Positions 10,301 to 42,457 of a stretch of 43,635 bases of DNA are shown here, piece by piece. This stretch comes from a virus, in IMG/VR virus record IMGVR_UViG_3300032235_000348, positions 1 to 43,635 of that record, one strand, 5' to 3'. The notes beneath the pieces were generated by a model, which worked only from the letters and a program-made list of their open reading frames with translations, was not told the origin of the DNA and did no database searches. Position 1 is the stretch's first letter. Every line of letters begins with the position of its first letter. The position numbers and the translations under genes are program-made.

Positions 10301-13300
10301 ATTTGTACCACAGATTTATGTAGACGATACGTTTGTTAGTGGGCCAAGACAAGTAATTCAAGGACACGACGGAAGCCTTACTGTTGCATACGGCGACTTT
10401 AGAGACAATGTAATTTTAGAATTCGAAAAGAGAATCTATAATAATATTAAAGTAAATTATAGATCTGATTTACTAAATGTAACGGAGTTTCTTCCAGGCG
10501 CATTTAGAAATTCACAGTTTACTAGAAACGAAACTAATGGAATTTTGTCTCCGTTATTCTTAAAGTGGACCGGAGCCTTTGGTGTTGACTTTAAATCAAA
10601 CGATACTTTTGATGAATTAAACTCGTTTACTTTTAATTATTCTTCAAATATTGACAGTATACACAAGAATTCATTGCCAGGCAACTGGAGAGGAATTTAC
10701 AAATATTTCTACGATACAGATAGACCGCATACTCATCCTTGGGAAATGCTAGGGTTTTCTAATAAGCCAGAATGGTGGGAATCAGAATACGGAGAAGCAC
10801 CTTACACTAGTGGCAATTTAATTCTGTGGAATGATTTAGAAGAAGGTAGGATTCTCCAAGGCGATCGAGCTGGAGTTGATCCTTTATATTCAAGACCAGG
10901 ACTAAGTGCTATTATCCCAGTTGACAGTAGCGGCAATCTTTTAAGTCCAACTGACACTGGATTAGCAACCACTCCGGTAATTAATCCCTCAGATCCAAAT
11001 AGAATTATTGTTCTTCGCAGCGAGCAAATTGCAGAAGACTGGAAATTTGGCGACGGCGCACCTGCCGAGAATGCATGGAAAAGAAGTAGCTACTGGCCGT
11101 TTGCAGTACAGGTATTGATGGCATTGTCTAATCCAGCTTCGTATGCTGCTAAAATGTTTGATACATCTAGGATGATTCTAAACAAAACAAATCAATATAG
11201 ATATGGAGAATCAAATGAATTTATATCTCCGTCGAAAGTTGCATTGTTTGGTGATATCGTTGACGGTAATCGAACCCTTGCTTCTGGGTATAGCGTATTT
11301 GTAATTGAACTTGGTACTACACGAGACAACAATTATCTAGAAAAAATAAAAGCCGATCTAAGCAATTTGAATTATAATTTGTCATTTAAGCTAGGCGGTT
11401 TTGGCAGTAAAGATAAGCTACAAATTTCAATCGATGCAGTTGACCCGGATAGTCCTTACCCAGGAGTTCTTGTTCCTTCTGAAGACTACAACATTATTTT
11501 CAATCAAAGCAGCCCGATCGAAAGTATAGGAATTTCTGGATTAATTATTCAGAAAGTTACCTCAGGATACTCAGTACGGGGATATGACAAATATCAGCCT
11601 TACTTTACAATTTTAAAACCATATGCTTCGAATGCTGATCAAACTTTAAGAGTCGGCGGCAGAACTGCTTCATACGTTCGTTGGAGAGCTGAAACAACAT
11701 ATAACGTAGGACAAATTGTATTTTATAACGATCGTTATTATCAGGTAAAGCAAAAGCATCTTACAGATACGACATTTAATGCATCATACTACCAGAGTTT
11801 GCCGTACTTGCCGACGCTGGGCGGAGTAGGTGTTCAGAGAAGAACTAAATTTGACACAGAAGAAACTATTGTTCCTTATGGAATTGTTTACTCTAATATT
11901 CAAGAAGTTTACGATTTAATTGTTGGTTACGGCAAGTGGTTAGTGTCAAAAGGATTTGTATTTGATGAATTCAATAATGATCTAGGACAGGTTTTAGATT
12001 GGGATTTTGCATCTAAAGAATTTCTATATTGGACTACACAAAATTGGGCAACTAATTCTGTAATCACTATTAGTCCGTTTGCTAACAAAGTCAAGTACTA
12101 TTCAACTCAAGGTGTTGTTGATAGTATTGTTAATAATTTTTATGAATATAGTTTATTAACAGCAGACGGCTCTCCGTTCTCAAGAAATGCGTTTGATATT
12201 GTTCGACTAGACGGCGAATTTACAATCTCAACGGTTAACACTAAAGAAGGCTTGTTCTTTGCTAGAATTAATATTGTGCAAAAAGAACATGCAGTAATCT
12301 TTAATAACTTTACTTTGTTCAATGACATTGTTTATGACGTTGATACAGGATATCGTCAGCGTCGAATAAGCCTTAAAGGATTTAGAACCGCAGATTGGAA
12401 TGGTGATTTTTACAGCCCTGGATTTGTGTTTGACCAAGCAAATATCAGTGATTGGAAGAAATACACAGATTATAAAATTGGCGAAGTAGTTCGATTCTCT
12501 GGAAAATATTATTCAGCTCCAAAGGGATTAGCAGGTACTAATGAGTTTAATTTCAACGATTGGGTTCTGCTAGCTGAAAGACCAGAAGCGCAGCTTCTTC
12601 CAAACTTTGAGTATAAAATTGGACAATTTGAAGATTTCTATAGTTTAGATATAGACAACTTTGACACTGGTCAGCAAAGCATGGCTCAGCATTTAACTGG
12701 CTATACTCCTCGTCCATATCTAAATAATATTATTGGAGATCCAATTGCTCAGTATAAGTTTTATCAAGGTTATATTAGAGAAAAAGGTACAAGAAATCCA
12801 CTAACAAAAATTTCTAAATCATCTCTAAATACATATCAAGCCAGCATTGATTTCAATGAGGAGTGGGCATTCCGTGTAGGATATTTTGGCGGATACAACA
12901 CATACCAAGAATTAGAAACTTCGTTGGATTCTACACAGTTTATTGAAAATCCTCAAATTATTGAATTTGTTGCAGAAAAACCTGTAGGAAATACTGACGT
13001 AGTTTATTATAAAGATGAAAGCGACATCATTATCTCTCCGGAAGATCTTGATATCAATCAAATTTTTCCAGTTATTGAAACTAGTGATGTAGAAGATATT
13101 TTCCAGCTACCGGTAGCTGGTTATGTAAGATTCGACGATGTTAACGGAACAGCTTATAATAAGAATAGCATTTTAGATATTGCAAACAACAGTGCATTAA
13201 TTGAAGGCAGTACTATTTGGTTAGGATTTAAAGAAAACAGTGATTGGGATGTGTTAAGGTACACTAAGGTACCGGCAATTATCACTAATGTTGAAATCTA

Positions 13301-16300
13301 CGAAGTTGGTCAATCGATACTGTTTACAACATCAGCAAATCATCAATTGACTGTTAATGACTTGATTAGTGTTAGTCGAATCTCAAATGATATTGATCAA
13401 TGCTACATAGTATCTGAAATTATTTCTCCCACACAGTTTACAGTATTTTCTACTCTTTACGATATTCCAATTCTTCCTGAAATTATATCGGGATTACTTT
13501 TTGTATTCAAATCCTCGAGATTATCTGACTTTTCTAAATTAACTGATATACCTTTCTTAGAAAGATGGCAAAACGGAGAAAAGATTTGGGTCGATGATAA
13601 CGGTTCGAATCTTTGGGCAGTGTATGAAAAAACTGAAAACTATGAGTCTTCGAAATATCCAAGCGTAGTTAATAAGCCTTCACAGCACTATGGTACAAAG
13701 ATCTTTGCCTCAGATTTTACCAGTACATTTATTGTGTCTGCTCCGGACTATTACGATGCAGTTGACAATCTTTTAGGAAGAGTATTCTTATTAGATAAAA
13801 ATGCAGACGGTTCTCCGAACTTAATTTTTAGCTATTCTTTAAATGACGAAAATGTTTATTTCGATAGTACAGCGACAAACTCTTTTGGATTTAGCTTAGA
13901 ATCTGATCCTATTAAGAAATTAATATTTGTCGGCGCTCCGAGAACAACTAATGTAAGAACTGCGTCAAGTTCAACTGTTGTTAATCCGAGTTTGTCGTTC
14001 CTAAGTTTTGATAATCAAGGAATTGTTAAGATTTCATTGTATGATGAGAGCGATATTGACGAAACTGCAAAAGTTGTAGTAACTACTCCAACTCCGGCAG
14101 ACAATGTACTTTTTGGATATGATTTAGCATACTCTACAATTACTAATTCTTTGTTAGTTGGTGCTCCTGGACAAAATAATAGTGCAGGATCAGTATACAA
14201 ATATACAATCATCTCGACAGCATCAACCGTGTCAACAATATATCAAGGTGCTATTGCACTTCCAACTTTAGCTTCTGGTTATCGTTTCGGATCGGCAATT
14301 GCTGGAAATGCTAGCTTAACTCGTTATGCAGTTTCTGCACCAGGATACATTAACACTGTTAATCCCGATTCTGCAGGTTCGAGAGGTGCAGTATATGTTT
14401 ATGATACATCGTTAGTTACTCCTCAAATAATTACAGGAGACACGCTATCATTGCCAGCATTGTTTGGACCTACTGATATATTTGGTTCCACAATAAAAAT
14501 GACCAAAGACGGTCAGTATTTGATAATCGGAAGTCCGCAAGCCTACGACAATTTACATGAAACACAAACAGGTGTAGTAGATATATTCAAGTGGAATGGA
14601 ACTCAGTTTACTCATCATCAAAGAATATATTCGCCAATTGATTCTAATGGTGCAAGTTTTGGATACGACATTTCGGTAGATGATGAAGGAGAGCTTTTAG
14701 TAATTTCGTCAATTGGTGATGGAAAGACTGCTGTTCCTACTTTTAACAAATATTCTGAAAGACTAGATCCAACAACAGCATTGGCAGAATATCAGTCAAT
14801 ATATATTAATGATCCGGAAAGTACTCCAACTAAGTTATTGACAACTTTTGACAGCGGCTCGACTGGCTTCTTTAGTACTATAATCGATGCTGGATCGGTA
14901 CATGCTTATAGTAGATTCGGTACTAAGTGGGCTCATTCTCAAGAGATTATTGATCCAGAAATTGATACTGGTAGTTTTTATGGAGCAAGTGTTGCTGCTA
15001 CAAACGATCTAGTTTACGTTGGCGCACCGGCCTTTTTAGATTCTTTAAACAACGGCAACGGACAGATTTACCTATTTTCTAAAATTGATCCTTCAATTAA
15101 GGGATGGAATTTACTAAGAGAGCAAGAGCCATTAGTTGATATTAATAAGATTAAACGAGCTCTTACAATAAACACTACCGATGATCAAATTCAAGACTAT
15201 ATCGATGTCATTGATCCAATTAAAGGTAATATCATCGGAACTGCAAGAGAAGAACTAAAATATATAACTTCTTATGATCCTGCAGTTTATAGTGTAGGTA
15301 TTGACGGTGTTAATGTTAGTGTTAACAGCAACTGGCTAGACTCGCATGTTGGCGAACTATGGTGGGATCTTTCAACTGTTAAGTACGTTTGGTACGAACA
15401 GGGAGAGCTAGAATATCGCAAGAATAACTGGAATAATGTTTTTCCTGGTAGCTCAATTGATGTGTACGAGTGGGTCAGAACAGAGTATCTTCCTACCGAA
15501 TGGAGTGCTATTGCAGACACCACTGACGGATTAGCTCGCGGTGTAAGCGGACAGCCAAAATTTGTAAACAATAATGTTGTATCAGTTAAGCAAGTATATA
15601 ATAATGTAGCAAATGCATTTACTAATGTTTACTATTATTGGGTTAAGAATAAAAATATTACACCATCGAATGTAGATGGACGTCGTAGACCTGCACTCGA
15701 AATTGCTAGAGAAATTGCAAATCCAACTGCTACCGGAAATAAATTCCTAGCAGTATTATCGCCCACGTCGATGATTGTTGCAAATTCAAAGTCTTCAATA
15801 ATGTCAGATTCAATTAATTTAAACATTAGTTTTGACTATATTAACGATGCAGCAAATCGTCACACAGAGTGGTTACTACTACAAGAAAACGATCCAAATA
15901 GTAGACCTAACTGGTTACTAGAAAAGAAACTATTTGATAGCTTGTTAGGACACGATTCGATTGGCAATCCGGTTCCTGATCCTCAGCTTCCGAGTAAGTT
16001 AAAATATGGTGTTGAAATTCGACCTAAGCAATCTCTGTTTGTAGATCGAAAAGAAGCATTAAGAAATATAATCGAATTTGCAAATAGTGTAGTATCGGCT
16101 GAACTAATCACCGATAGAGTAAACTTTACAAATCTTAACTCTAAAGATGAACTTCCTGCTGAAGAAACTTATGATTTACTAGTTGAAGATATTTTTGAAT
16201 TAGAATTAGTGCCAACATCGCTGTTACAAACTGCAGAATTATTAGCTAACATCGACAGCGACGGAAAAATAATTTCAGTATCAATTCTAAATCCAGGATA

Positions 16301-19300
16301 TGGTTATAAAACTCCGCCTACAATTTCTATATCAGGTCCAGGCACTGGCGCTGAGCTAGAATCGATTATTAATGACCAAGGTAGTATTACTGGCGTTATT
16401 GTTGTTAATGGTGGGTTTAATTTCACAGAATCACCAGAGCTAACTGTTAGACCATTTACTGTAGTAGTTCAAACTGATAAAAATCTAAACGGCAAATGGT
16501 CTCTTAATATTTGGGACAAAGATCAAAAGCAATGGGATATAATTAAAACCCAAGTTTATGATACTACTTTATATTGGGAATACATTGATTGGGCCAGCGC
16601 CGATTATAACGAACTAGCATCAATCGAATACAATGTTGAGTCAACCTACGAGATTAACGGGTTACTAGATATCGAAGAAGGAATGCATGTTAAAGTTCTT
16701 AACAGCGGCAACGGACGTTTTATAATCCTCCGAAGAACCGATGGAACATCTGGATCTTTTGATGATGATTGGGATATTGTTTATTCTCAAAATGGAACAA
16801 TTCGTTTCCTAGATTCTCTTTGGGATGTTAACGAATCATTCTATGCATGGGACGAGTTCGCTGGATTTGATCAGACTCGATTTGATCAAGCACCAGATCA
16901 AGAAATTTTCTATGCGTTAACTGCACTAAGAGATGACATATTCATCAATAATCTTAAGATTAATTGGAATAAGCTATTCTTCAAAGCTGTTCGTTATGCG
17001 TTTAGCGAGCAAACAACTTTAGATTGGGCATTTAAGACTACTTTTATTAGTGCTATTAACAACTTAGGTAGTCTAAATCAAGTTCCGACATATAAACTTC
17101 AAAATAGTCAAAATTATGAGGATTTTCTAGAAGAAATCAAGCCATATCACACTAAAATTAGAAGATTTACTGAGGTTTATACAGGAACTGAGTTTTCGCA
17201 GTCATACACTACAGACTTTGACTTACCTTCGTATTTCAACGAATTGACTCAAAAATTTGAAACTGTTAATTTTGGTAACGATTTATTGTTGTCATATCCT
17301 TGGAAATCTTGGTATGATAACTTTACATATGGAATAGAATCAATTGAAATTTATGACGGCGGAGCAGGTTACACAGAAGTTCCTGCAGTTCACATTGTTG
17401 CAGCTAACGGCGACACTGGACAAGGTGCTGAAGCAGTTGCTCATATTTCGCTAGGAAAAATATCTAGAATTGATATTATTAATCCAGGATATGGATATAC
17501 TTCTGCTCCAACTATTGTCTTAAACGGCGGCGCAACAGTAACTTCTTCTGCAAAAGTATATGCAAGACTTGGAAACTGCCCAGTAAGAATCAACCATTTA
17601 ACTATGAAATTTGATAGAGTTTCGGGAGTTAGAGAAATTGGTAACAAATATTACACTGATGTATTTGTTAGCAACGGAGAAGATGTTACCTATGATTTAA
17701 CTTGGGTTCCAATTCCAGATAAAACTGAAATTACAATGACTCTTAACGGCGTCTTACAGCTAATGGATAGTTACACTATTGAATATAGCGAAAGAAAATA
17801 TAGTCCACAGTCAAATACAACTTATACTAAAAAGTTTGCAACTCTAAGATTATTGTTTACGCCACAGAACGGAGATACAATTGAAATAACTTATCCTAAG
17901 AATTTGGATTTCTATACAGCAGTTGATCGAATTGAAGATTATTATGCACCAGGTTCTGGAATGCCGGGCAAAGAGTCTGATCAGTTAATGACAGGCTTGT
18001 CATATCCTGGACTTCAAATTGATACACTACCATTTGATGCAACAGGCGGCTGGGATGTAGTACCTTACGGAGTTTCATCGTGGGATAACTATTCGCTTGA
18101 GTCGGGTTACATGTCGTTCTCGACTACAGCTCAGACCACGCAAACATTTACTTTAACCAACATGATTATTACTACCGGTACACAAGTAAATGTTTATCTT
18201 AACGGACTACGAGTAGACAGCACATTATCAAATGCAGTTGTTCCTACCTTAATTGGTAAAGGAACAGGTGCAGTTGACTACATCGAAATTCAAGGTCCAG
18301 GAGCAGGATATTCTTCAACATTTACTTCGGTGACAATTTCTGCTCCTAATAATCTAAGCGGTACACAAGCAACAGCAAATGCTATTGTAGTTGATGGTTC
18401 GATTGCTGGCATTAGCATTCTTAATAAAGGCAGTGGATATACAGAAGATCCTGTAGTAACAATTACTGGACCTTCTACAATTCAAGCATATGCTAAGGCT
18501 GTTCTTAAAGCTGAATTTACTACGTCGACGTCGACAGTTATTAGAACTGAAGTAGTAATTCCAGGAGGAACATCAACGTTTGCTACTACTTCTACCCTTG
18601 TTGTCTTTAGATATTCGACCAGCGATGGTACATTACAGCCTACTGATTTAGGAAATCTTGATTCAGTTATTAGTGGCGGAGACCTAGCTTATACCACTGC
18701 ACTTGGATTGACACCGAGCGAAATTATATTAGATGGTGGATCAACATCGACACAATTTATATCTGGTATGAACGATGATGGATTCTTAAATCCTTACAAC
18801 AGTTATGCTCCGGAGGAATGTGTTCCTGGACAGGTACAAGAAGCAATCGGAATCAGCGTATATGATCAGCCAGTTAATACTTCGCCGATTATTGCTAATA
18901 AAAATTATATCGTTGACGGATCGACATCGACATTTAGTCTAGGAGTTAAGCCGTCCAATTACGATTCTGTAATTGCAATCTTTAATAATTCTAAATTAAC
19001 TTTGTCAGAATTCACTATCGATTATAAGAATAACACATTTACTTTTAACTCAGCAAATCCGGGAACAGGTTGGCTTAGCTTAACATCTATGCAGCTAGCC
19101 GGAATTAGACTAATCGATCACTATACTGATACTACTGAAACAACGTCTTCGATTGTTACATCAGTTGCATATTCAGATGTTGGAAGTAATGGGTCGAGTG
19201 TGTATGTAACAATAAATGGAATTCCTGCAGCAGCCGGAGATGCTTACACTATTGAAAATTATCAATCAAGAGCAAAGCTAAGTTTCTTCCAAACTGGTAC

Positions 19301-20747
19301 AATTCAAGCATATTTGTTCAATGCTCCAGTTAAAGCATTTAGTGAAATCAATGAGCAAATTATTACAGCTTATAATAACGATTCCGCTTTTGTATTATAT
19401 CAATCCCCAGGAGTTGCAGGTCCCCTCCATAGTCAAGTAATTGTTACTTTAGATGGATTGAGGTTAAATCCTCCAGTTACTACATATTATCAAGTAACTG
19501 ATAATCAGTTAACATTTGATGTTAGCGAGTCTATTAGATTCCCATCAAGGGGAGTTAGCCTTGCAGATCTTGAAGTTTATGTTAATGGCGTTCGAGAAGA
19601 AGTTCCAGGAATTTGGAGATTAACTCAAACTAAAAATCAGATAACCTTTACTCAAGGATCTTTAACAACAGGCGATGTAGTAGCAATTGTAGTTAAGAAG
19701 GGTCATGATTACCTCATCGAAAACGATCAATTAGTATTAGTAAATCCAGTTGAAGCTACTTCTGAAATTCGAATTACAACGTTTACTAATCATGATCCGT
19801 CCTTTATTAGAACTGAAAGATTTACGGGTAACCCAACAAATCAATACCCTATGCAAAGAGCAGCACTAGATTCGTCTTATGTTTGGGTAACTTATAACGG
19901 AACACCGTTAATGACTGACGTAGATTACCGAGTAAGTACTGACGGTTATACAGTCATTGTTAGAGACGGAATTTTTGAATCTATCAATGATGCAGTAGTG
20001 ATCACTAGCTTTGCAAGTCAAGAAATTAGAATGTCTTCTTATAGAATTTTCAAAGACTTGCTAGGCAGAACTCATTACAAGAGATTGAGCAACGAAAATA
20101 CTACATACCTTACTCAAGACTTGTATACTACATCTACATCAATTGTTGTTGAAGATGCAAGCGTGTTAACTCCGCCAGATGTTAATTCTAAAATACCAGG
20201 CGTTGTTTTAATTGACGGCGAAAGAATTGAGTTCTTTACAGTAGTTGGAAATACATTAGGGCAATTGAGAAGAGGCACACTCGGCACTATGCCAGCTTCA
20301 GTTTATCTATCAGGCAAGCCAGTAATTGACCAAGGTGTAATTCAAACAATGCCAGTTAGAGATTTTGCTCAAACAACTGCAACAATCATTTCAACGTCGA
20401 CCCAGGTGACATTTGATTTAAGTAACAGCATCAGATTTAATACATCAGTTGCGTTTACTGATCAGGTCGAAGTTCGATACGGCGGAAGAAAATTATTGAA
20501 GCCAAACTTATACACCGTGCAACACGATTACGATTTATCGTATGATAGCACATCGACAGCTGATACAGTGTTAGTACCAGAGTTTTCGATCTCAACATCG
20601 AGTGTATTAACTTTGAATTTTGCTCCTGACGCAGGCGTAAAATTAGAAGTTATTGCAAGAAATTCTACTGTATTTGATCAGACAACAATTAATTTTATAC
20701 GTGAAAGGTCGGCTTCGTTGCCAGATAAATATCGATATGGACAATAA
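7368..20747 (+). CDS. Giant virion structural protein (4459 aa) with FG-GAP-like propeller and carbohydrate-binding-like modules
   Basis: The N-terminus (LLPGYLRTDKNEKFLANTLD, then YQLEPSMVIRDNN and FINYRQYYWMPNGPDSIEI) resembles the very large structural proteins (often named VrlC) next to gp6 in T4-like marine phages. Residues about 2115-2575 hold six clear and one weak V/I-G/S-A/S-P motifs (near 2124, 2188, 2264, 2322, 2387, 2446, 2551), spaced mostly 60-75 residues, as in integrin-type FG-GAP beta-propellers. Two W-x4-5-Y-x2-G-x2-V modules (about 1438 and 1695) resemble CBM5/12 chitin-binding folds. Five GxGY repeats lie near 2974, 3328, 3371, 3641 and 3684. The C-terminus has IDGERIEFFTVVGNTLGQLR, common in phage tail proteins. 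Probably a baseplate-periphery or fibre protein contacting host glycans; the role is inferred. No frameshift is visible over 13.4 kb. Confidence 0.85.
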   Translation: MANKSIKPVDVNNRSNTRRTADLLPGYLRTDKNEKFLANTLDQYIQQPQLERLNGFVGSKLSLNYDPESDTYVNTGGKLRTDYQLEPSMVIRDNNADIKKVSGYDDLINQLSFYGANVSNLDRLFRPESYSYDPCIDWDKFINYRQYYWMPNGPDSIEITGQQKNTVSTYTVTDSADKLHLIFNPDGLTPTPLLTLYRGMTYVFNINSEYPFYIKTAYVKGVQNLYPAASNQGTKSGQIILTVDDTTPNVLFYFAEGNDTAIGQFAVKQLSENTVLDLEQEVIGKQTYQSGNGVTFSNGMKVRFVGNVTPDSYLDKDFIIEGVGSSIKLIEFDTLKTVGLSTTNIDVDFDATPFDEYPFDDFSFVPLTPEYITINRAAPDLNSWSRYNRWVHEDVISSSASANNVPAVFDASMRAQRPIIEFIAGMQLFNFGSKAKQNVDLIDTVTKSAFSTFEGSAGFYIDGVQVEEGFRVIFNADTDPLVRGRIYRVTFSTVNNRLVVNLEEAIDSEPVLNNSVVAIRGTSSAGTNWWYNGSEWIFGQQKTELNQAPLFELYDKDGNRFADQNFYNSSFNGTKIFGYSVGTGTPDPVLGFPLNYRNVVNVGDYLFENFFMTDEFTDFTNGNLSVLTVSGNYLKFNSDDNETFRDVWTPQKEQKIPIIQFQVIESATPSIQITSIENPGYDQSMTLGVFVNDVEQLLNIDYVIARTGSQAYVVSTTSFSKDDRVLIKVYSVKTPINDGYYEVPTNLSNNPLNGPIGEFTFAELSDHVKTITENHPTFNGVFPGTGNLRDLGDINSYGTRLVSHSNPVGFAHYFIGTDENNLISAIRRVSDDYNQFKASLIRQVADLKAFQDPIIMLDKALMLLSANKDKTFPYHYSDMVPYGENYTGRNYTVTDSRNKRYSLLSVFDSEVLSERAVLVYLNDTLLVKDTDYVIEKFSPSILINAPLVKGDIITVKDYQSTVGNYVPPTPTKLGLYPKFVPQIYVDDTFVSGPRQVIQGHDGSLTVAYGDFRDNVILEFEKRIYNNIKVNYRSDLLNVTEFLPGAFRNSQFTRNETNGILSPLFLKWTGAFGVDFKSNDTFDELNSFTFNYSSNIDSIHKNSLPGNWRGIYKYFYDTDRPHTHPWEMLGFSNKPEWWESEYGEAPYTSGNLILWNDLEEGRILQGDRAGVDPLYSRPGLSAIIPVDSSGNLLSPTDTGLATTPVINPSDPNRIIVLRSEQIAEDWKFGDGAPAENAWKRSSYWPFAVQVLMALSNPASYAAKMFDTSRMILNKTNQYRYGESNEFISPSKVALFGDIVDGNRTLASGYSVFVIELGTTRDNNYLEKIKADLSNLNYNLSFKLGGFGSKDKLQISIDAVDPDSPYPGVLVPSEDYNIIFNQSSPIESIGISGLIIQKVTSGYSVRGYDKYQPYFTILKPYASNADQTLRVGGRTASYVRWRAETTYNVGQIVFYNDRYYQVKQKHLTDTTFNASYYQSLPYLPTLGGVGVQRRTKFDTEETIVPYGIVYSNIQEVYDLIVGYGKWLVSKGFVFDEFNNDLGQVLDWDFASKEFLYWTTQNWATNSVITISPFANKVKYYSTQGVVDSIVNNFYEYSLLTADGSPFSRNAFDIVRLDGEFTISTVNTKEGLFFARINIVQKEHAVIFNNFTLFNDIVYDVDTGYRQRRISLKGFRTADWNGDFYSPGFVFDQANISDWKKYTDYKIGEVVRFSGKYYSAPKGLAGTNEFNFNDWVLLAERPEAQLLPNFEYKIGQFEDFYSLDIDNFDTGQQSMAQHLTGYTPRPYLNNIIGDPIAQYKFYQGYIREKGTRNPLTKISKSSLNTYQASIDFNEEWAFRVGYFGGYNTYQELETSLDSTQFIENPQIIEFVAEKPVGNTDVVYYKDESDIIISPEDLDINQIFPVIETSDVEDIFQLPVAGYVRFDDVNGTAYNKNSILDIANNSALIEGSTIWLGFKENSDWDVLRYTKVPAIITNVEIYEVGQSILFTTSANHQLTVNDLISVSRISNDIDQCYIVSEIISPTQFTVFSTLYDIPILPEIISGLLFVFKSSRLSDFSKLTDIPFLERWQNGEKIWVDDNGSNLWAVYEKTENYESSKYPSVVNKPSQHYGTKIFASDFTSTFIVSAPDYYDAVDNLLGRVFLLDKNADGSPNLIFSYSLNDENVYFDSTATNSFGFSLESDPIKKLIFVGAPRTTNVRTASSSTVVNPSLSFLSFDNQGIVKISLYDESDIDETAKVVVTTPTPADNVLFGYDLAYSTITNSLLVGAPGQNNSAGSVYKYTIISTASTVSTIYQGAIALPTLASGYRFGSAIAGNASLTRYAVSAPGYINTVNPDSAGSRGAVYVYDTSLVTPQIITGDTLSLPALFGPTDIFGSTIKMTKDGQYLIIGSPQAYDNLHETQTGVVDIFKWNGTQFTHHQRIYSPIDSNGASFGYDISVDDEGELLVISSIGDGKTAVPTFNKYSERLDPTTALAEYQSIYINDPESTPTKLLTTFDSGSTGFFSTIIDAGSVHAYSRFGTKWAHSQEIIDPEIDTGSFYGASVAATNDLVYVGAPAFLDSLNNGNGQIYLFSKIDPSIKGWNLLREQEPLVDINKIKRALTINTTDDQIQDYIDVIDPIKGNIIGTAREELKYITSYDPAVYSVGIDGVNVSVNSNWLDSHVGELWWDLSTVKYVWYEQGELEYRKNNWNNVFPGSSIDVYEWVRTEYLPTEWSAIADTTDGLARGVSGQPKFVNNNVVSVKQVYNNVANAFTNVYYYWVKNKNITPSNVDGRRRPALEIAREIANPTATGNKFLAVLSPTSMIVANSKSSIMSDSINLNISFDYINDAANRHTEWLLLQENDPNSRPNWLLEKKLFDSLLGHDSIGNPVPDPQLPSKLKYGVEIRPKQSLFVDRKEALRNIIEFANSVVSAELITDRVNFTNLNSKDELPAEETYDLLVEDIFELELVPTSLLQTAELLANIDSDGKIISVSILNPGYGYKTPPTISISGPGTGAELESIINDQGSITGVIVVNGGFNFTESPELTVRPFTVVVQTDKNLNGKWSLNIWDKDQKQWDIIKTQVYDTTLYWEYIDWASADYNELASIEYNVESTYEINGLLDIEEGMHVKVLNSGNGRFIILRRTDGTSGSFDDDWDIVYSQNGTIRFLDSLWDVNESFYAWDEFAGFDQTRFDQAPDQEIFYALTALRDDIFINNLKINWNKLFFKAVRYAFSEQTTLDWAFKTTFISAINNLGSLNQVPTYKLQNSQNYEDFLEEIKPYHTKIRRFTEVYTGTEFSQSYTTDFDLPSYFNELTQKFETVNFGNDLLLSYPWKSWYDNFTYGIESIEIYDGGAGYTEVPAVHIVAANGDTGQGAEAVAHISLGKISRIDIINPGYGYTSAPTIVLNGGATVTSSAKVYARLGNCPVRINHLTMKFDRVSGVREIGNKYYTDVFVSNGEDVTYDLTWVPIPDKTEITMTLNGVLQLMDSYTIEYSERKYSPQSNTTYTKKFATLRLLFTPQNGDTIEITYPKNLDFYTAVDRIEDYYAPGSGMPGKESDQLMTGLSYPGLQIDTLPFDATGGWDVVPYGVSSWDNYSLESGYMSFSTTAQTTQTFTLTNMIITTGTQVNVYLNGLRVDSTLSNAVVPTLIGKGTGAVDYIEIQGPGAGYSSTFTSVTISAPNNLSGTQATANAIVVDGSIAGISILNKGSGYTEDPVVTITGPSTIQAYAKAVLKAEFTTSTSTVIRTEVVIPGGTSTFATTSTLVVFRYSTSDGTLQPTDLGNLDSVISGGDLAYTTALGLTPSEIILDGGSTSTQFISGMNDDGFLNPYNSYAPEECVPGQVQEAIGISVYDQPVNTSPIIANKNYIVDGSTSTFSLGVKPSNYDSVIAIFNNSKLTLSEFTIDYKNNTFTFNSANPGTGWLSLTSMQLAGIRLIDHYTDTTETTSSIVTSVAYSDVGSNGSSVYVTINGIPAAAGDAYTIENYQSRAKLSFFQTGTIQAYLFNAPVKAFSEINEQIITAYNNDSAFVLYQSPGVAGPLHSQVIVTLDGLRLNPPVTTYYQVTDNQLTFDVSESIRFPSRGVSLADLEVYVNGVREEVPGIWRLTQTKNQITFTQGSLTTGDVVAIVVKKGHDYLIENDQLVLVNPVEATSEIRITTFTNHDPSFIRTERFTGNPTNQYPMQRAALDSSYVWVTYNGTPLMTDVDYRVSTDGYTVIVRDGIFESINDAVVITSFASQEIRMSSYRIFKDLLGRTHYKRLSNENTTYLTQDLYTTSTSIVVEDASVLTPPDVNSKIPGVVLIDGERIEFFTVVGNTLGQLRRGTLGTMPASVYLSGKPVIDQGVIQTMPVRDFAQTTATIISTSTQVTFDLSNSIRFNTSVAFTDQVEVRYGGRKLLKPNLYTVQHDYDLSYDSTSTADTVLVPEFSISTSSVLTLNFAPDAGVKLEVIARNSTVFDQTTINFIRERSASLPDKYRYGQ

Positions 20748-31351: not shown

Positions 31352-32590
31352 TTACTTGTAGTAAGCGTATTGGCCAAACGGCGGAACAATTGATTCTGTA
31401 CCGTGAATAATAAACAGTGATTCACAGTAATCTCCATCACCCCAACTACCGCAAGGATAGCCGTCAGTGAACATGATGAATCGCTTAGGTTCGATGTCGT
31501 TGTCCTTCATGAACTTGTAGTTTGCATCGAAGTCAGTGCCGCCACCGCCTTTGACTTGGTAGTTCATGATGTCGTCAGCATTGTCGCCGCTAAACTTCTC
31601 GTAGTTGTAAACTCGAGTATCAAAGCACCATAGCTGAAGATTAAAGTCCTGGTATTCATCCATAATGCCCTTAACTTCGGAAAGGAAGTCTTTGGCCTGC
31701 TTGTCTGAAATAGAACCGCTCATATCAACTGCGCAGCAAACATCAATAGTTTCTTCATTGACCATTCCTGGTAGAATAGCACCGCACATTTGACTCTTAC
31801 GATTAGGACGACTAAAGCTAAAGTTACTCTTGAGAATGCTCTGAATGTTCATACGAAGCAGTTCTCGCCAATCCATCTTAGGCTCAGTAAAGTCCTTGAT
31901 AAGACGAGCTACGCCTGCAGGAACCTTGCCTGCGCCTGCTGAATGAGCGGCGCTGACCATAGCTTCCTTAATTTCGTCTCGAATTTGCTTTAGCTCTTCC
32001 TTGCTGTAACGAACCGGACCATTGCCGTCTTGATCACTATCGCCGTCCCCGTCGCCTTCACCGTCAAGGTGTTCGTCTAGTAGGTCACCGAGTGAACTAA
32101 TGTCGATCTTGTCTGCCTTTTCGTAGAGTTCGTCGTAGATCTGTTCAAACGACCAACCTCGATACTTATTGTCCTGGAAGACTTTAATAAAGCTCGGAAA
32201 TTCGCCGATCTTATCGTCCTTGCAGATCTGATTAACAGCATAGTCCATTGCAATGTTAGCTAGTTTTTTATCGCGGCTTTCGCAACGACCCATATGGTCA
32301 AACACATTGTGAAGAACTTCGTGTGCAAAGCCAAACTCAGCTTCCTTGGGCTTTAGCTTGTCGACAAATCCGACATTGTAATAAAAGTTACGACCATCAG
32401 TTGCTAGGGTTGGAAGCCAGTCGCTAGCATCAATAAGATTGAGTCGAGTTGCAAGATTGCCAAAAAATGGATGGCGTAGTAGAAGACCGACGCGAGCAGT
32501 AGTTAGCTTCTCAATGACACGATTTTTTTCTTCGCGTGTGTATTCGCGAACTTCTGCCTTTTTAGTCTTTTCTTGCTTCATAATCGACAT
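31352..32590 (-). CDS. Metallopeptidase-like (DUF2201-type) protein with VWA domain, partner of MoxR ATPase
   Basis: A 412-residue protein. The N-terminal half carries H90-E-V-L-H94, an HExxH zinc motif, followed by NIAMDYAVNQICK, as in DUF2201-type putative metallopeptidases. Residues about 176-190 are an Asp/Gly-rich acidic linker (GEGDGDGDSDQDGNG). The C-terminal VWA domain has a complete MIDAS: D289-x-S291-x-S293, T352 and D376 (FTDG). In bacteria, VWA proteins like this, including CobT, work with MoxR/CobS AAA+ ATPases as metal-insertion or remodelling chaperones. The MoxR gene lies immediately upstream, across a terminator. This gene has its own sigma70 promoter (TTGACT-18-TATAAT) and GGAGA before the ATG. 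Codons are visibly GC-richer than in flanking genes. The substrate in the infected cell is unknown. Confidence 0.87.
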   Translation of the reverse strand: MSIMKQEKTKKAEVREYTREEKNRVIEKLTTARVGLLLRHPFFGNLATRLNLIDASDWLPTLATDGRNFYYNVGFVDKLKPKEAEFGFAHEVLHNVFDHMGRCESRDKKLANIAMDYAVNQICKDDKIGEFPSFIKVFQDNKYRGWSFEQIYDELYEKADKIDISSLGDLLDEHLDGEGDGDGDSDQDGNGPVRYSKEELKQIRDEIKEAMVSAAHSAGAGKVPAGVARLIKDFTEPKMDWRELLRMNIQSILKSNFSFSRPNRKSQMCGAILPGMVNEETIDVCCAVDMSGSISDKQAKDFLSEVKGIMDEYQDFNLQLWCFDTRVYNYEKFSGDNADDIMNYQVKGGGGTDFDANYKFMKDNDIEPKRFIMFTDGYPCGSWGDGDYCESLFIIHGTESIVPPFGQYAYYK

Positions 32591-32622
32591 GTGATTCTCC
32601 GTATGATTTAAAATACTTCCGC

Positions 32623-32652
32623 ATTATATACGGCGGGTAGGGTATAAGTCAA
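32623..32652 (-). promoter_or_regulatory. Sigma70-type promoter of the VWA gene
   Basis: On the minus strand TTGACT (32652-32647), an 18-bp spacer and TATAAT (32628-32623) form a near-consensus promoter in the 111-bp gap after the MoxR terminator. The start would be near 32616, giving a leader of about 26 nt with GGAGA before the ATG at 32590. Confidence 0.82.
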
Positions 32653-32669
32653 GTAATGTTTTGATAAAA

Positions 32670-32693
32670 ATAAAGGGCCCGAAGGCCCTTTAT
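32670..32693 (-). terminator. Intrinsic terminator after the MoxR gene
   Basis: A 10-bp perfect stem, ATAAAGGGCC paired with GGCCCTTTAT, closes a four-base loop that reads TTCG on the minus strand, the very stable UUCG tetraloop. Minus-strand sequence after the stem is T-rich (ATTTTTATC). It begins about 9 bp after the MoxR stop and separates MoxR transcription from the VWA promoter. Confidence 0.88.
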
Positions 32694-32701
32694 TCTCGGT
32701 T

Positions 32702-33781
32702 TTACTCCATGGCGGAGATAATGTACTTACCGTACTTGTCGTGGAATTCATCAAAGCTGTTAAGCTTCGAAGCATCAAACGGAAGATTGTACTGAGTAAG
32801 TGCAACCTTAGCGCCCATAACAACAAGCTCAGTTGGGAAGTTGTCCATCATGAAACGGAAGAAGCAATCTGCCTGTTCGTTCCAATCCTTTTCCTTCTTT
32901 TCGTGTGCAGTCTGTAGCTCGTAACACATGGAAATAGTCAGCGAATACATTGCTGAAATTTCCTTGATGTTCAGCTTCTTAACTTCACCCTTGAGCACTT
33001 GCTCAGGACGCGGTAGCTGCTTGGCAATCTTACGATGTGCCATAAACTTAACAGCAAGACCGTCACCGACTGCACCAGCAACTAGGTCAGTTAGTGTACT
33101 GTCACCGAGGTCATCGTCGCCGAGTAGATCGGAAACAAACGACCAAGAACGCGGAGTTGCAAAAGCACGACTTGCGCTCTTCGGATCAAAGTCATAAAGA
33201 TCCTGCTTGGCAAAGCCGAGGTAGCCAACTACCTGCTCGTGGATCTTGTTCTTAACAGCCCATTCCTGCCAATCATCAAAGCTGGTCTTCAGTTCAAGGT
33301 GTAGGAAGCGGTTAGCTAGCGGAGCAGGCATACGATAAGTAACGCCCTTGTCGCTTTCACGGTTACCAGCAGCAACAATGCTTACACCCTTAGGCAGTCG
33401 GTAAGTACCAACTCGACGGTTAAGAATTAGCTGATATGCAGCAGCTTGAGTAGCAGGAGCAGCGGAGTTAAGTTCGTCTAGGAACAAAATTGCAGTGGAT
33501 TCAGGATCGCTTGGAAGCTCAATCGGTGGAGCCCAAGTCATTGTCTGCAGGTCGGGATTATAAAAAGGAATGCCCTTGATGTCAGTGGGTTCCCAAAGAG
33601 AAAGTCGGATATCGATAACTTCGCGATCCTGTTCAGCACCAATCTGGTGAACAATATCGGACTTACCAATGCCCGGGGGACCCCACATAAACACAGGACG
33701 GTTTACCTTGAAGCACTTGCGAATAGCGGCCTTTGCTTCGTTAGGAGTCTGTGTCCGATTAACACTTGCTACTTCTGCCAT
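32702..33781 (-). CDS. MoxR/CobS-type AAA+ ATPase
   Basis: A 359-residue AAA+ ATPase. The Walker A motif is G34-PPGIGK-S41, Walker B is ILFLDE at 98-103, sensor 1 is N140 in VAAGN, and a candidate arginine finger is R158 in PLANRF. ALW-type WEPTDIKG and the NSAAPATQAAAYQLI helix are characteristic of the MoxR branch, in which CobS also falls. MoxR ATPases remodel or load metals into targets with VWA-domain partners, and the next gene downstream encodes one with a full MIDAS. In cyanophages a related gene is annotated cobS; cobaltochelatase activity is not implied here because the large CobN subunit is absent. The gene is flanked by its own promoter and terminator, is GC-rich compared with the rest of the window, and starts after AAAGG. 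Confidence 0.9.
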   Translation of the reverse strand: MAEVASVNRTQTPNEAKAAIRKCFKVNRPVFMWGPPGIGKSDIVHQIGAEQDREVIDIRLSLWEPTDIKGIPFYNPDLQTMTWAPPIELPSDPESTAILFLDELNSAAPATQAAAYQLILNRRVGTYRLPKGVSIVAAGNRESDKGVTYRMPAPLANRFLHLELKTSFDDWQEWAVKNKIHEQVVGYLGFAKQDLYDFDPKSASRAFATPRSWSFVSDLLGDDDLGDSTLTDLVAGAVGDGLAVKFMAHRKIAKQLPRPEQVLKGEVKKLNIKEISAMYSLTISMCYELQTAHEKKEKDWNEQADCFFRFMMDNFPTELVVMGAKVALTQYNLPFDASKLNSFDEFHDKYGKYIISAME

Positions 33782-33833: not shown

Positions 33834-33862
33834 ATTATAATGTAAAAGGGGTAAGTGGTCAA
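33834..33862 (-). promoter_or_regulatory. Sigma70-type promoter of the MoxR gene
   Basis: TTGACC (33862-33857), exactly 17 bp, then TATAAT (33839-33834) on the minus strand. The -35 box contains the TGA stop of the upstream gene. The leader to the ATG at 33781 would be about 45 nt. Strength should be high for a host sigma70 polymerase, which fits early expression. Confidence 0.85.
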
Positions 33863-36670: not shown

Positions 36671-37522
36671 TTAAGTTGCCCAAGCATTTTTAAACAACGG
36701 AACCTGTAAGCGATCGCTGTAGCGTAAGCCGTGCTTTAGTGCTAACAATGCAACATTTTTATTGTTCATTGAATATACGTCCTCAACACCGCCAACCGGC
36801 ATTAAGTAAATCGGGCCAGTAAATCCTGCATCACGATAGATCTGACTAACTTCTAATGCTTCTGCTGCGTCCTCTTCTGTGGCAACAACAAACTTGAGAT
36901 AAGCATAACCGTACTGTTCATAGCTGCACACAATATCTGGACGAATTGCTTCTTCGCGCTTCTCACCGCTAACACTTAATTTAGCACTAACAGAGAATGT
37001 AATTTCACGATCAAATGGTGCGTCAACGCCACTGTACCATTCGTCTAGAAAATGCATAAACTCTGGAGTTAGTTCTTGTGTACCGTTTGTTTCAAAGGTA
37101 ATTTCCTTTAAGTTACGCATCTTAGGATTGCTGAGCAAATCCGGATATGAACGCTGCCATCCTAGCAACGGCTCGCCGCCCGTAATAACAAGGTGCTCAT
37201 CACGCCATTCGTTAAACGGAAGCAGTCCCATGATTCGATCTACGATCTCATCAGTATCTACCTGCGGGGACAAATGCTTGAAACGCGGGTCCCAAGATGC
37301 GTAACTATCACATCCTGTAGTGACAAGTGGAAGTGCGTTGTAATCAGTGTACTTACTTGGATCGACGTTTACTGCTTCTTGACTCAGTTCGCCCTTGGGC
37401 ATACCAAAGCCTGCACATTTGAAGTTACATCCAAATGTTCGCAAGAAAATACTAGGAACGCCCATATATCGGCCTTCACCTTGTACACTGTAAAATAATT
37501 CTGCTAGTTTAATTTTGCTCAT
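36671..37522 (-). CDS. queE: QueE-like 7-carboxy-7-deazaguanine synthase (radical SAM)
   Basis: A 283-residue radical SAM protein. It starts with LAELFYSVQGEGRYMG and RTFGCNFKC, the QueE signature, and has GGEP at 115-118 for SAM binding. Cysteines for the 4Fe-4S cluster would be C32, C36 and then C71 in TTGCDSYASWD, a much wider spacing than the CX3CX2C of most radical SAM enzymes but compatible with the modified cluster loops of QueE. The enzyme converts carboxy-tetrahydropterin to carboxy-deazaguanine. FolE and a QueD-like protein are encoded upstream, so the pathway is nearly complete in the window. Its strong promoter lies so close to the ATG that the mRNA would be leaderless. Homology is firm; activity is inferred. 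Confidence 0.9.
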   Translation of the reverse strand: MSKIKLAELFYSVQGEGRYMGVPSIFLRTFGCNFKCAGFGMPKGELSQEAVNVDPSKYTDYNALPLVTTGCDSYASWDPRFKHLSPQVDTDEIVDRIMGLLPFNEWRDEHLVITGGEPLLGWQRSYPDLLSNPKMRNLKEITFETNGTQELTPEFMHFLDEWYSGVDAPFDREITFSVSAKLSVSGEKREEAIRPDIVCSYEQYGYAYLKFVVATEEDAAEALEVSQIYRDAGFTGPIYLMPVGGVEDVYSMNNKNVALLALKHGLRYSDRLQVPLFKNAWAT

Positions 37523-37527
37523 AATGT

Positions 37528-37556
37528 ATTATACCTATTTTTATTAAGAAAGTCAA
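37528..37556 (-). promoter_or_regulatory. Sigma70-type promoter of queE, apparently leaderless
   Basis: TTGACT (37556-37551), a 17-bp spacer and TATAAT (37533-37528) on the minus strand. Only five bases (ACATT) separate the -10 box from the queE ATG, so transcription should start at or next to the first base of the start codon. A TAGG within the spacer/-10 region could serve as ribosome-binding site only on read-through transcripts from guaC. Confidence 0.82.
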
Positions 37557-37559
37557 TTG

Positions 37560-38654
37560 TTACTTGTTTACAAACACTTGATTGGCTTGCTGAGTAACTC
37601 GAACAAAAGTTGTACATTTACTCAATTGTTTTAATGAAGGCGCACCGACATATGTACAAGTACTACGGAGTCCGCCAAGTATATCCTTAATCGTATTCTC
37701 AACTGCTCCCTTATAAGGGATTTCCACTGTACGCCCTTCACTACTACGATATTCTGCAACACCACCGTGATGCTTGTTCATAGCAGTTTCTGAACTCATT
37801 CCGTAGAACTGAACGAACTGCTTCTTTTCTACGATAAATTCTTTGGTAACTTTTTCACCCCACTCGCTGTATTCTTCAACTTTAAGCTGGTTGGTTTGGA
37901 AATATCTATTAATGATCTTGCCGCCGCCTTCTTTGTGACCAGCAAGCATACCGCCCAGCATTACAAAATCTGCTCCTGCACCAAAGGCTTTTGCAACATC
38001 TCCTGGGCATACACATCCTCCGTCGGCGATGATATGTCCGCCAAGACCGTGAGCAGCATCAGCGCACTCCATAATAGCACTAAGCTGAGCATAACCAACG
38101 CCAGTTTGAATACGAGTTGTGCAAACGCTCCCAGGACCGATGCCCACTTTAATAATGTCTGCTCCACGTAAAATTAACTCCTGTGTCATATCTGCGGTAA
38201 CAACATTGCCCGCAATAATTGTGTGATTGGGATATTCTTTTCTAACTTTAGCTACAAAGTCTCCAAAGTACTCGCTGTAGCCGTTTGCAACGTCAATGCA
38301 AATGAATTGTATGTATGGATATTTTTGAATAAGACCACTTAATCTTTCAAAATCATGGTTACTTGTGCCAGTGCTAATTGCGTATCTATATGGATTCAAT
38401 TCAAAGGGAATTTCAGCTGTAGTCTTTGTTAGACATGTAAACAAGGCATTATCTTGTAATGCCCTAGCCATATCTATGGTACCAACTCCGTCCATGTTTG
38501 CAGCCATAATTGGTATGCCGCACCATTCAATACCACTATGCTTGAACTTGTAAGTTCTGGATAGACTTACTTCTTTACGACTTCCAAGAGTGCTTCGCTT
38601 AGGACGAATTAAAACGTCTTTAAAGTCTAAAAGAATTTCGTTTTCAATTCTCAC
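37560..38654 (-). CDS. guaC: GMP reductase
   Basis: A 364-residue IMPDH/GMP-reductase family enzyme. The catalytic loop is [16 protein letters not shown] with C178. The C-terminal third ([20 protein letters not shown], then [20 protein letters not shown] and TTFVRVTQQ) matches GMP reductase rather than IMP dehydrogenase, and there is no CBS-domain insertion. The reaction is NADPH-dependent deamination of GMP to IMP. In a phage this would recycle guanylate to IMP, feeding adenine nucleotides or adjusting the GTP pool used by FolE. The ATG overlaps the upstream phosphoribosyltransferase by 4 bp (ATGA), so it belongs to the folE unit. Identification is strong; the physiological reason is inferred. 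Confidence 0.92.
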
Positions 38655-39160
38655 TTAGTCCACCAATCTTCCCAAGGAAAATCAATCCAGACGTCGTTTT
38701 CTGCCTTGTTAATTTCTTCAGCACGGTATGTTACATCGTCAAATTCTGATGCAAGATTTTCAAACAATACTGCAAATCTAGTTGATTCGCCCCATACATA
38801 ATTCCAACGTTCATCGTTTACTGCACAGCTACTTTGCCAGTCTTGTTTAATCCAATTAAACGTTGCACCTGAGTCATTAATGTCATCTACAATTAAAATA
38901 CGCTTTGGAGAATCTTGATAACCATAAGCATCTTCAGCCATCCAGCAATTGGATTCGGGCCCAATATCACTGTCCCGCAAACTTACATTAAGTGAGTGCA
39001 TGGGAACATTAAAATAGTGACTAATCATGACTGCTGGGATCAACCCTCCTCGAGTTAATCCCACAACGTAATCTGGTCGCCATCCACTAAGACTAATATC
39101 TCTGCAAAGTTTATTAACTAACTGCTGAATATCCTCATTGGAAATTTTACGTTTATCCAT
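38651..39160 (-). CDS. Purine (xanthine/guanine-type) phosphoribosyltransferase
   Basis: A 169-residue type I phosphoribosyltransferase. The PRPP-binding motif is [15 protein letters not shown] at 87-101. The N-terminal [19 protein letters not shown] matches the PPi loop of purine transferases, and the C-terminal [10 protein letters not shown] resembles the FPWE substrate-binding end of Gpt-type xanthine-guanine enzymes. It should transfer phosphoribose from PRPP to a purine base, giving IMP, XMP or GMP. It overlaps guaC downstream and the 100-residue gene upstream by 8 bp. Alongside guaC and folE it suggests control of guanine nucleotide flux. It could instead act on a deazapurine base, but nothing in the sequence shows this. 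Confidence 0.87.
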
Positions 39161-39455
39161 GCCTTAGTGCTTCCATTGTTAAAATTTTGCCAATTTCATG
39201 ACCCATGTCTTGCTCGTCTGTAATGATATGTAAATTAGCTTTAGTTCTATCAGTGTGTGGGTCATAGCTGCTAGTTTCGACTACATATCCGCCTGTTGCT
39301 TTGCATACTCTGAAATTAATTCCAGGAGCATCTAATCTATTACTATAAGGACTGCCGATAAATGCACTTGCTTTTGCTACACCATTGCTCACGTATTCTT
39401 CCTTTTCTGTATCTTCAGCTAACCACTGACGTACTTTTTTCTTAGCCCAACTCAT
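39153..39455 (-). CDS. Hypothetical protein inside folE unit (100 aa)
   Basis: A 100-residue protein with a basic N-terminal helix (SWAKKKVRQWLAEDTE) followed by a beta-rich segment: NRLDAPGINFRVCKATGGYV, VVETSSYDPHTDRTKANLHI and ITDEQDMGHEIGKILTMEAL. This looks like a two-layer alpha/beta fold. There is one Cys and no nucleotide-binding motif. From memory it resembles a short conserved protein in T4-like marine phages. It overlaps folE by 4 bp at its start and the phosphoribosyltransferase by 8 bp at its end, so expression is tightly coupled to purine and pterin genes. Function unknown. Confidence 0.75.
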   Translation of the reverse strand: MSWAKKKVRQWLAEDTEKEEYVSNGVAKASAFIGSPYSNRLDAPGINFRVCKATGGYVVETSSYDPHTDRTKANLHIITDEQDMGHEIGKILTMEALRHG

Positions 39456-40144
39456 CGTGGTGCAAACTCCTGTTGTAGTTTAATGTTATCAAAAAACTCT
39501 TTCTTCGTACCCGGATCGTCTTTAAATGCACCACGCAGTACAGTTGTTTGTGTAAGAGAACTATGTGCCATAATACCACGATTTTCGCAGCAACCGTGAG
39601 TGGCTTGGATATAAACGCCGAGGTCAGTTGCTCCTGTTGCTTTAGCAATTTCTCGAGCAATGTCGTTAGCTAGTTCTTCTTGTAGTGTTCCTCGACGAGC
39701 GCACCATTGTGCAATGCGAGTATACTTACTTAGACCGATTAGCTTTTCAGCAGCAATGATACCAATATATGCAATTCCGCTAACTGGCTGATGATGATGC
39801 GAGCACATGCTCTTTAGTTCTGACCGTACTACAAGCATTCCGTCATAGCGGTCTTCGCTGTTATTTGGAAATGCAGTAGCATCAGGTGCCGGCGCATAAC
39901 GACCATTCATAATTTCGTAGATATACATTTTTGCAAGTCTACGTGCAGTTCCTTGGCTATTAGGATCAGTATGACGATCAATAATTAGCGAGTCAAGTAC
40001 GCCTTCAAACTTTTCAGAAATTTCATTAACTAGTGGATCAAAATCCTGTTCGCTAATGTATTTAGAAATGTTATCTCCTGCCCAATATCGAGCGCCATCG
40101 GCTTTAATAGAGTCTGTAATTTTTTCGTATGTTTTCTTATTCAT
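39452..40144 (-). CDS. folE: GTP cyclohydrolase I
   Basis: A 230-residue type I GTP cyclohydrolase. The zinc and catalytic residues are complete: C114-S-H116-H117 (CSHHHQPV), where C114 and H117 bind zinc and H116 is catalytic, plus H183-G-C185 in THGCCENRG. GLSKYTRIAQWCARRG at 137-152 is the family GLSK motif, and GTLQEELANDIA follows. It opens GTP to dihydroneopterin triphosphate, the first step to both folate and 7-deazaguanine. With queE and a QueD-like gene nearby the deazaguanine route is more likely. The first gene of its unit, it has a perfect-consensus promoter with a palindrome over the -10 box, and GGGGA 5 nt before the ATG. Confidence 0.94.
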   Translation of the reverse strand: MNKKTYEKITDSIKADGARYWAGDNISKYISEQDFDPLVNEISEKFEGVLDSLIIDRHTDPNSQGTARRLAKMYIYEIMNGRYAPAPDATAFPNNSEDRYDGMLVVRSELKSMCSHHHQPVSGIAYIGIIAAEKLIGLSKYTRIAQWCARRGTLQEELANDIAREIAKATGATDLGVYIQATHGCCENRGIMAHSSLTQTTVLRGAFKDDPGTKKEFFDNIKLQQEFAPR

Positions 40145-40158
40145 GATTTCCCCGAAAG

Positions 40159-40179
40159 TTTGTATAAATTATATACAAA
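40159..40179. repeat. Palindrome centred on the folE -10 box
   Basis: TTTGTATA and TATACAAA are perfect 8-bp arms around a 5-bp centre (AATTA). The palindrome covers the TATAAT of the folE promoter and the likely start site. This placement fits a repressor operator that would block polymerase. Its A/T content means chance is possible. Confidence 0.5.
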
Positions 40180-40196
40180 TATTTAGGCAATGTCAA
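40168..40196 (-). promoter_or_regulatory. Perfect-consensus sigma70 promoter of folE
   Basis: TTGACA (40196-40191), exactly 17 bp, TATAAT (40173-40168) on the minus strand: a full match to the sigma70 consensus. The start would be near 40161, with a leader of about 17 nt holding GGGGA. A CTAAATA in the spacer looks like a late box but is explained better as part of this promoter. Confidence 0.92.
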
Positions 40197-42428: not shown

Positions 42429-42457
42429 ATTATAATGCTACGACATTAAAAAGTCAA
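42429..42457 (-). promoter_or_regulatory. Sigma70-type promoter of the QueD-like unit
   Basis: TTGACT (42457-42452), a 17-bp spacer and TATAAT (42434-42429) on the minus strand, in the 61-bp gap after the DpdA-like gene. The start near 42422 gives a leader of about 22 nt with GCAAGG before the ATG at 42400. It matches the queE promoter in both boxes and in spacer length. Confidence 0.85.

Follow-up and report, generated by a model that had tools for sequence, protein, structure and literature searches.

A MoxR-type AAA+ ATPase (32702–33781; 359 aa) and a DUF2201 protein with a putative metallopeptidase N-terminal domain and a VWA C-terminal domain (31352–32590; 412 aa) are encoded side by side on the minus strand of the window, a 43.6 kb IMG/VR virus record from a giant freshwater phage, and they probably constitute a core jumbo phage remodelling pair whose dosage is set by DNA signals, with the ring subunit in excess. 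The pair itself is already known, and its description in jumbo phages by Iyer et al. 2021 (PMC7824862) has the same two proteins and the same domain fusion in phages of group 2.2, although the part of that paper dealing with the pair does not mention a conserved terminator, promoters or codon bias. The combination of a conserved terminator, a near-consensus promoter for the ATPase gene and a weaker one for the VWA gene is new here, and neither this promoter-terminator-promoter architecture nor the codon signature of the pair was found in the open-access literature; the same literature yielded no experimentally shown function for the pair. What has been said of its role so far comes from a brief suggestion in a comparative-genomics paper, and the reference annotation of one half is HNH endonuclease. 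Taken together, the conserved motifs, the codon bias and the conserved dosage signals point to a machine that is abundant and whose subunits have a fixed ratio.

Organization and conservation of the gene pair

Both open reading frames were confirmed at the positions given in a preliminary description of this DNA; they are on the minus strand, as are all features of the pair described below. The ATPase is a homologue of N4 gp24 (PHROG 1297; P0002) and the VWA protein of N4 gp25 (PHROG 1314; P0001). The plus strand of the window carries myovirus baseplate and virion genes, and the minus strand metabolic genes. The top relatives of the pair are in jumbo phages of 285–490 kb and in IMG/VR contigs as long as 355 kb, and homologues of the two halves are present in 745 and 798 public phage records.

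Gene order and strand, with the ATPase gene upstream of the VWA gene, are kept at all 135 loci with both genes, a set that takes in the window, the named phages and, for one contig, some stretches that overlap. The median gap between the two genes is 83 bases, and the only wide gap among these loci (2.9 kb) is in PA5oct, where the genes are parted by four ORFs. Each of the 21 loci with a single gene reaches the contig end before a full partner would fit, and the distance matrices of the two genes are correlated (Mantel r 0.82, 0/2000 permutations, 100 distinct clade members). By these comparisons the two genes share one history and are co-inherited, and the pair is core in this jumbo phage group. 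They are not neighbours in 4MG, an rv5-like phage. We note that one of the four intervening ORFs in PA5oct (L002 21114–23875) codes for a putative homing endonuclease.

Related arrangements are found further afield. N4 (Schitoviridae) has a homologous adjacent pair, gp24 and gp25, in which the MIDAS residues and zinc histidines are conserved, although the proteins are only 27–28% identical to those of the window, the gap is 167 bases and a GC3 excess is not clear. Bacterial MoxR/DUF2201 pairs (e.g. on Synechocystis pSYSA) likewise have a MoxR ATPase gene directly upstream of one for a DUF2201 VWA protein, but in the pSYSA pair (~31% identity) the genes overlap by 4 bases and there is no terminator. 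A genome-contig search gave three relatives, at least one of them on a phage-sized 335 kb contig, with no clear host among the three matches. An anti-phage defence module was considered and dropped, as a PADLOC search for one gave no useful match; the sole match of an NCBIfam search was a meaningless tryptophanase, and an Rfam search of the window identified no RNA family.

Motifs and predicted folds

Both Walker motifs of the ATPase are intact and conserved (Walker A, GPPGIGKS, residues 34–41, 33659–33682; Walker B, LFLDE, residues 99–103, 33473–33487), in agreement with the preliminary description, and the conserved residues include G34–S41, D102–E103, the sensor-1 N140 and the arginine finger R158. 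The protein scores above the cut-offs of the Pfam families AAA_3 and AAA_5, and its PHROG 1297 match is at 1.5e-100. Its AlphaFold model (pLDDT 81.7) has a helix-2 insert (strands 71–75/80–84, after the second helix) and a short pre-sensor-1 hairpin near 123–128, and these, with the Walker motifs, sensor-1 Asn, arginine finger and neighbouring VWA gene, are features of MoxR membership. The top Foldseek matches are NorQ, including NorQ–NorD VWA complexes, and CbbQ, and we take them as family-level evidence only because the TM-scores are low (about 0.3–0.4).

The VWA protein has above cut-off matches to PF13203 (DUF2201_N, ‘putative metallopeptidase’; 6.7e-40, residues 28–275) and PF09967 (DUF2201, VWA-like; 1e-13, residues 285–408). 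The zinc motif HEVLHNVFDH (residues 90–99; 32294–32323) provides an HExxH with H99 as the third histidine, and all five MIDAS residues are present (DMSGS at residues 289–293, 31712–31726, plus T352 and D376), so that the HExxH and complete MIDAS claimed earlier are indeed there. Among 105 distinct proteins the HExxHxxxxH motif is present in 104 and DxSGS in all, and the five MIDAS residues are invariant as far as N4 and 4MG. There is also an invariant C-terminal PFG, which may be a point of contact with the ATPase ring. The one exception is the Atu_ph07 protein (L004 20016–21305), which has HQILH, and therefore retains the zinc histidines but has lost the catalytic glutamate; this suggests that peptidase activity may be dispensable. 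The AlphaFold model has a pLDDT of 75.5, and the VWA half (residues 278–412), from which the listed PDB fold matches of the protein come, matches VWA/I-domain folds with Z of about 12; the Foldseek matches include midasin MIDAS domains. Judged by motif, both proteins look functional, as had been suggested, and the VWA protein would have peptidase activity.

PHROG 1314 is labelled ‘HNH endonuclease’ in PHROGs, and hence in many RefSeq phage records. We reject this label since a Pfam scan of the VWA protein finds no HNH family and DUF2201_N occupies the region concerned, and it is likely to be a propagated annotation error.

Two bacterial systems are comparable. In the Rubisco activase CbbQ–CbbO there is likewise a MoxR ATPase, one of our top fold matches, with a MIDAS-bearing VWA partner, but the N-terminal part of CbbO reportedly has no characterised homologues, there is no peptidase domain, and the substrate is Rubisco. 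In NorQ–NorD, NorQ is the nearest fold match of the phage ATPase and the NorD VWA domain has a DxSxS-T-D MIDAS, but the pair inserts metal into NOR, and the available description of NorD does not mention a metallopeptidase domain.

Promoters and terminator

The promoters and terminators reported here are consensus matches rather than mapped starts. The ATPase gene is preceded by a sigma70-type promoter, TTGACC-17-TATAAT (33834–33862), matching the consensus at 11/12 positions, and is followed by an intrinsic terminator (32661–32697; −20.3 kcal/mol, z −5.3) with a GGGCC-UUCG-GGCCC core. On the minus strand the hairpin reads AAUAAAGGGCC-UUCG-GGCCCUUUAUU with a U-rich tail, and beyond it is a second promoter, TTGACT-18-TATAAT (32623–32652), upstream of the VWA gene. 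The preliminary description had the two adjacent genes separated by a terminator and a new promoter; this is borne out, and the arrangement is conserved across relatives.

Among distinct gaps of 40–300 bases, a terminator is present in 70 of 76 pair gaps; among other codirectional gaps the figure is 21 of 290, and after shuffling it is 2 of 380. The more distant RaK2, 121Q, XaC1, Atu_ph07 and Phosso also have one after the ATPase gene, although by eye no clear second promoter is seen in the pair gaps of RaK2, 121Q and XaC1. A promoter matching at least 10 of 12 positions precedes the ATPase gene in 94% of 97 distinct relatives, but only 6% of other genes with upstream gaps of under 40 bases and 25% of those with gaps of at least 40. 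For the VWA gene the proportion is 59% at this threshold, rising to 91% at 9/12 or better. At 11/12 or better the figures are 84% for the ATPase gene, 35% for the VWA gene, 15% for other genes with gaps of at least 40 bases, and 2% for the rest. RaK2 and 121Q have TTGACA-16-TATAAT upstream of the ATPase gene. Among the nearest relatives, part or all of the effect of the terminator can be offset by the second promoter.

Other near-consensus sigma70 promoters are present in the minus-strand gene block at 37528–37556, 40168–40196 and 42429–42457, and the window as a whole has six such sites where 0.67 are expected.

Base composition and codon usage

No other 2,430 bases of the window are as rich in GC as the pair (45.8% vs. 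38.2% overall), with a median GC of 45% for 60-base lines inside it and 37% outside. The preliminary description was thus correct about the direction of the difference, but its figures of 52–60% against 23–30% exaggerate the size. The gaps around the pair are AT-rich (GC 0.39, 0.34 and 0.29), and the excess is chiefly in GC3 and not GC2, with GC3 at 0.46 in each of the two genes and a median of 0.28 in the others. Codon choice is strongly skewed: AGA is used for none of 35 Arg and TTA for none of 58 Leu, and AAG for 88% of Lys.

The same bias is seen in other genomes. The median GC3 percentile is 100 for the ATPase gene and 93 for the VWA gene over 106 loci with enough neighbours. In PA5oct the pair ranks 4th and 13th of 264 ORFs; in RaK2, XaC1 and 121Q the ATPase gene is 1st or 2nd of 35–38 local ORFs; and GC3 is also raised for the pair in Phosso and Atu_ph07. 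The signal is weaker in the 355 kb relative G003 (ranks 23 and 44 of 315), and N4 and 4MG have little or no clear excess; the N4 ATPase gene has fewer rare codons than any of the genes around it. The earlier suggestion of different codon selection is supported by this recurrence across the clade and in the named jumbo phages.

Because distant jumbo phages share this use of GC-rich codons, we read the bias as translational selection for high expression and not as a sign of foreign origin. High expression is also the safer reading because the major head protein gene of G003 ranks alongside that for the ATPase, and for this reason the signature is rejected as a mark of early genes specifically. 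Most of the top-GC3 ORFs of PA5oct are in the terminal repeat, which is suggestive for early genes. We note that short, possibly coding ORFs rich in GC3 also form a block on both strands of G003 (L184; 245–260 kb).

Proposed mechanism and dosage

By analogy with known MoxR systems, the ATPase would assemble as a hexameric ring and remodel its target at the expense of ATP. One VWA protein would dock on the ring, its MIDAS metal gripping an acidic residue of the target, and docking would bring the zinc metallopeptidase domain to the target, which would be remodelled by ATP hydrolysis in the ring and then possibly cut or released. The CbbQ6O1 stoichiometry and MIDAS-dependent substrate binding have been shown (PMC4660213), and a NorQ hexamer with one NorD is supported by a second study (PMC9976466).

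The near-consensus promoter would drive the ATPase gene, with the terminator halting most transcription past it, and the VWA gene would be transcribed by read-through and from its weaker promoter; codons suited to high expression would lift output further. A strong ATPase promoter, a terminator and a weaker VWA promoter imply that the ring subunit should be in excess, which would fit the need of a 6:1 complex. The different dosage envisaged earlier accordingly becomes, as a function predicted from conserved signals, a conserved device favouring ATPase excess. Two proteomes fit this. In phAPEC6 virions the ATPase was identified (gp265c, 49.52 kDa, 6 peptides; the calculated mass of the 121Q ATPase is 49.51 kDa) and no protein at the 54.06 kDa of the VWA protein, though a protein missing from a virion list tells little. 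For PA5oct, detection by ESI-MS/MS is marked for the ATPase and not for the VWA protein. That the whole device, from near-consensus promoter through ATPase gene, terminator and weaker promoter to the adaptor-protease, supplies an excess MoxR ring for an abundant early remodelling-proteolysis machine acting on a host target is a tentative and rather doubtful extension.

Role in infection and alternative explanations

As to when the pair acts, an early target in the host or in replication/transcription is modestly favoured over virion assembly. The part of Iyer et al. dealing with group 2.2 jumbo phages proposes a virion-assembly role, with the MoxR–VWA pair of the archaeal virus ATV as precedent (PMC7824862). 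Such a chaperone would help to fold or assemble tail or head parts and would process structural proteins, and it is a possible but doubtful explanation. The pair does come after the tail sheath, tube and neck genes in RaK2, 121Q and XaC1, and the ATPase is present in phAPEC6 virion preparations. However, the phAPEC6 list also includes thymidylate synthase and SSB, so that co-purification of the ATPase with virions is likely. Moreover, N4 gp24 and gp25 are well away from the structural genes and are flanked by the gp15/gp16 RNA polymerase genes, which serve middle transcription, and by the replication genes; the neighbours in PA5oct, Phosso and Atu_ph07 are genes of DNA and nucleotide metabolism; and the pair is found both in N4-like podoviruses and in contractile-tailed phages, whose tails are unrelated. 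The sigma70-type promoters, of a kind typical of genes that the host RNA polymerase transcribes, also argue against virion assembly. We therefore lean towards an early or middle role because of these promoters and the replication-type neighbours, promoter type and neighbours being the only basis for doing so.

Other explanations concern the individual features. Hairpins at transcript 3′ ends often protect mRNA, and the intergenic hairpin could be such a stabilising structure rather than a dosage-setting terminator, in keeping with the lack of an obvious second promoter after it in RaK2, 121Q and XaC1; this seems unlikely, as the U-rich tails suit termination, and the form persists despite drift in loops and stems. 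Less probable still is a chelatase-type metal-loading machine (CobS/CobT or NorQ/NorD-like), an idea already present in the preliminary description, that would place metal in a host or phage enzyme. NorQ–NorD, the nearest solved relatives by fold, do insert iron into nitric oxide reductase, there is weak similarity to a PHROG ‘porphyrin biosynthesis’ family (PHROG 249; 3e-7), and BchI is one of many AAA+ matches (Z 9.6). In the window, itself a fragment, no chelatase large subunit or cofactor genes were found, PA5oct has separate genes annotated as ‘porphyrin biosynthesis’, and the HExxH domain points to proteolysis more than to chelation. Recent acquisition of a GC-rich pair from a GC-rich bacterium, to which the base composition and the VWA protein relatives on betaproteobacterial plasmids could be taken to point, is very remote. 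These plasmid relatives are ~27–33% identical, compared with 71–99% for the 80 best viral contigs and ~34–47% for other jumbo phages, and jumbo phages whose base composition is quite different show the GC3 excess as well. With this clade-wide recurrence, the distance to bacterial homologues and the co-inheritance of the two genes, recent foreign origin is rejected, and the different origin raised earlier is not sustained given the constant order and strand and the single history.

Other features of the window and its relatives

A single 4,459-aa ORF on the plus strand of the window (7368–20747) matches virion structural protein families. On the minus strand (36671–40144), genes for a QueE-like radical SAM protein, a dehydrogenase-like protein, a phosphoribosyltransferase-like protein and a GTP cyclohydrolase are clustered, and may represent a 7-deazaguanine (preQ0) pathway, perhaps for DNA modification. 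The 355 kb relative G003 has 13 tRNA genes in one cluster (L172, L188), and ARAGORN predicts a tmRNA-like gene in the same genome (L188 8174–8753) with the tag AKKVNANDSQFLMVA.
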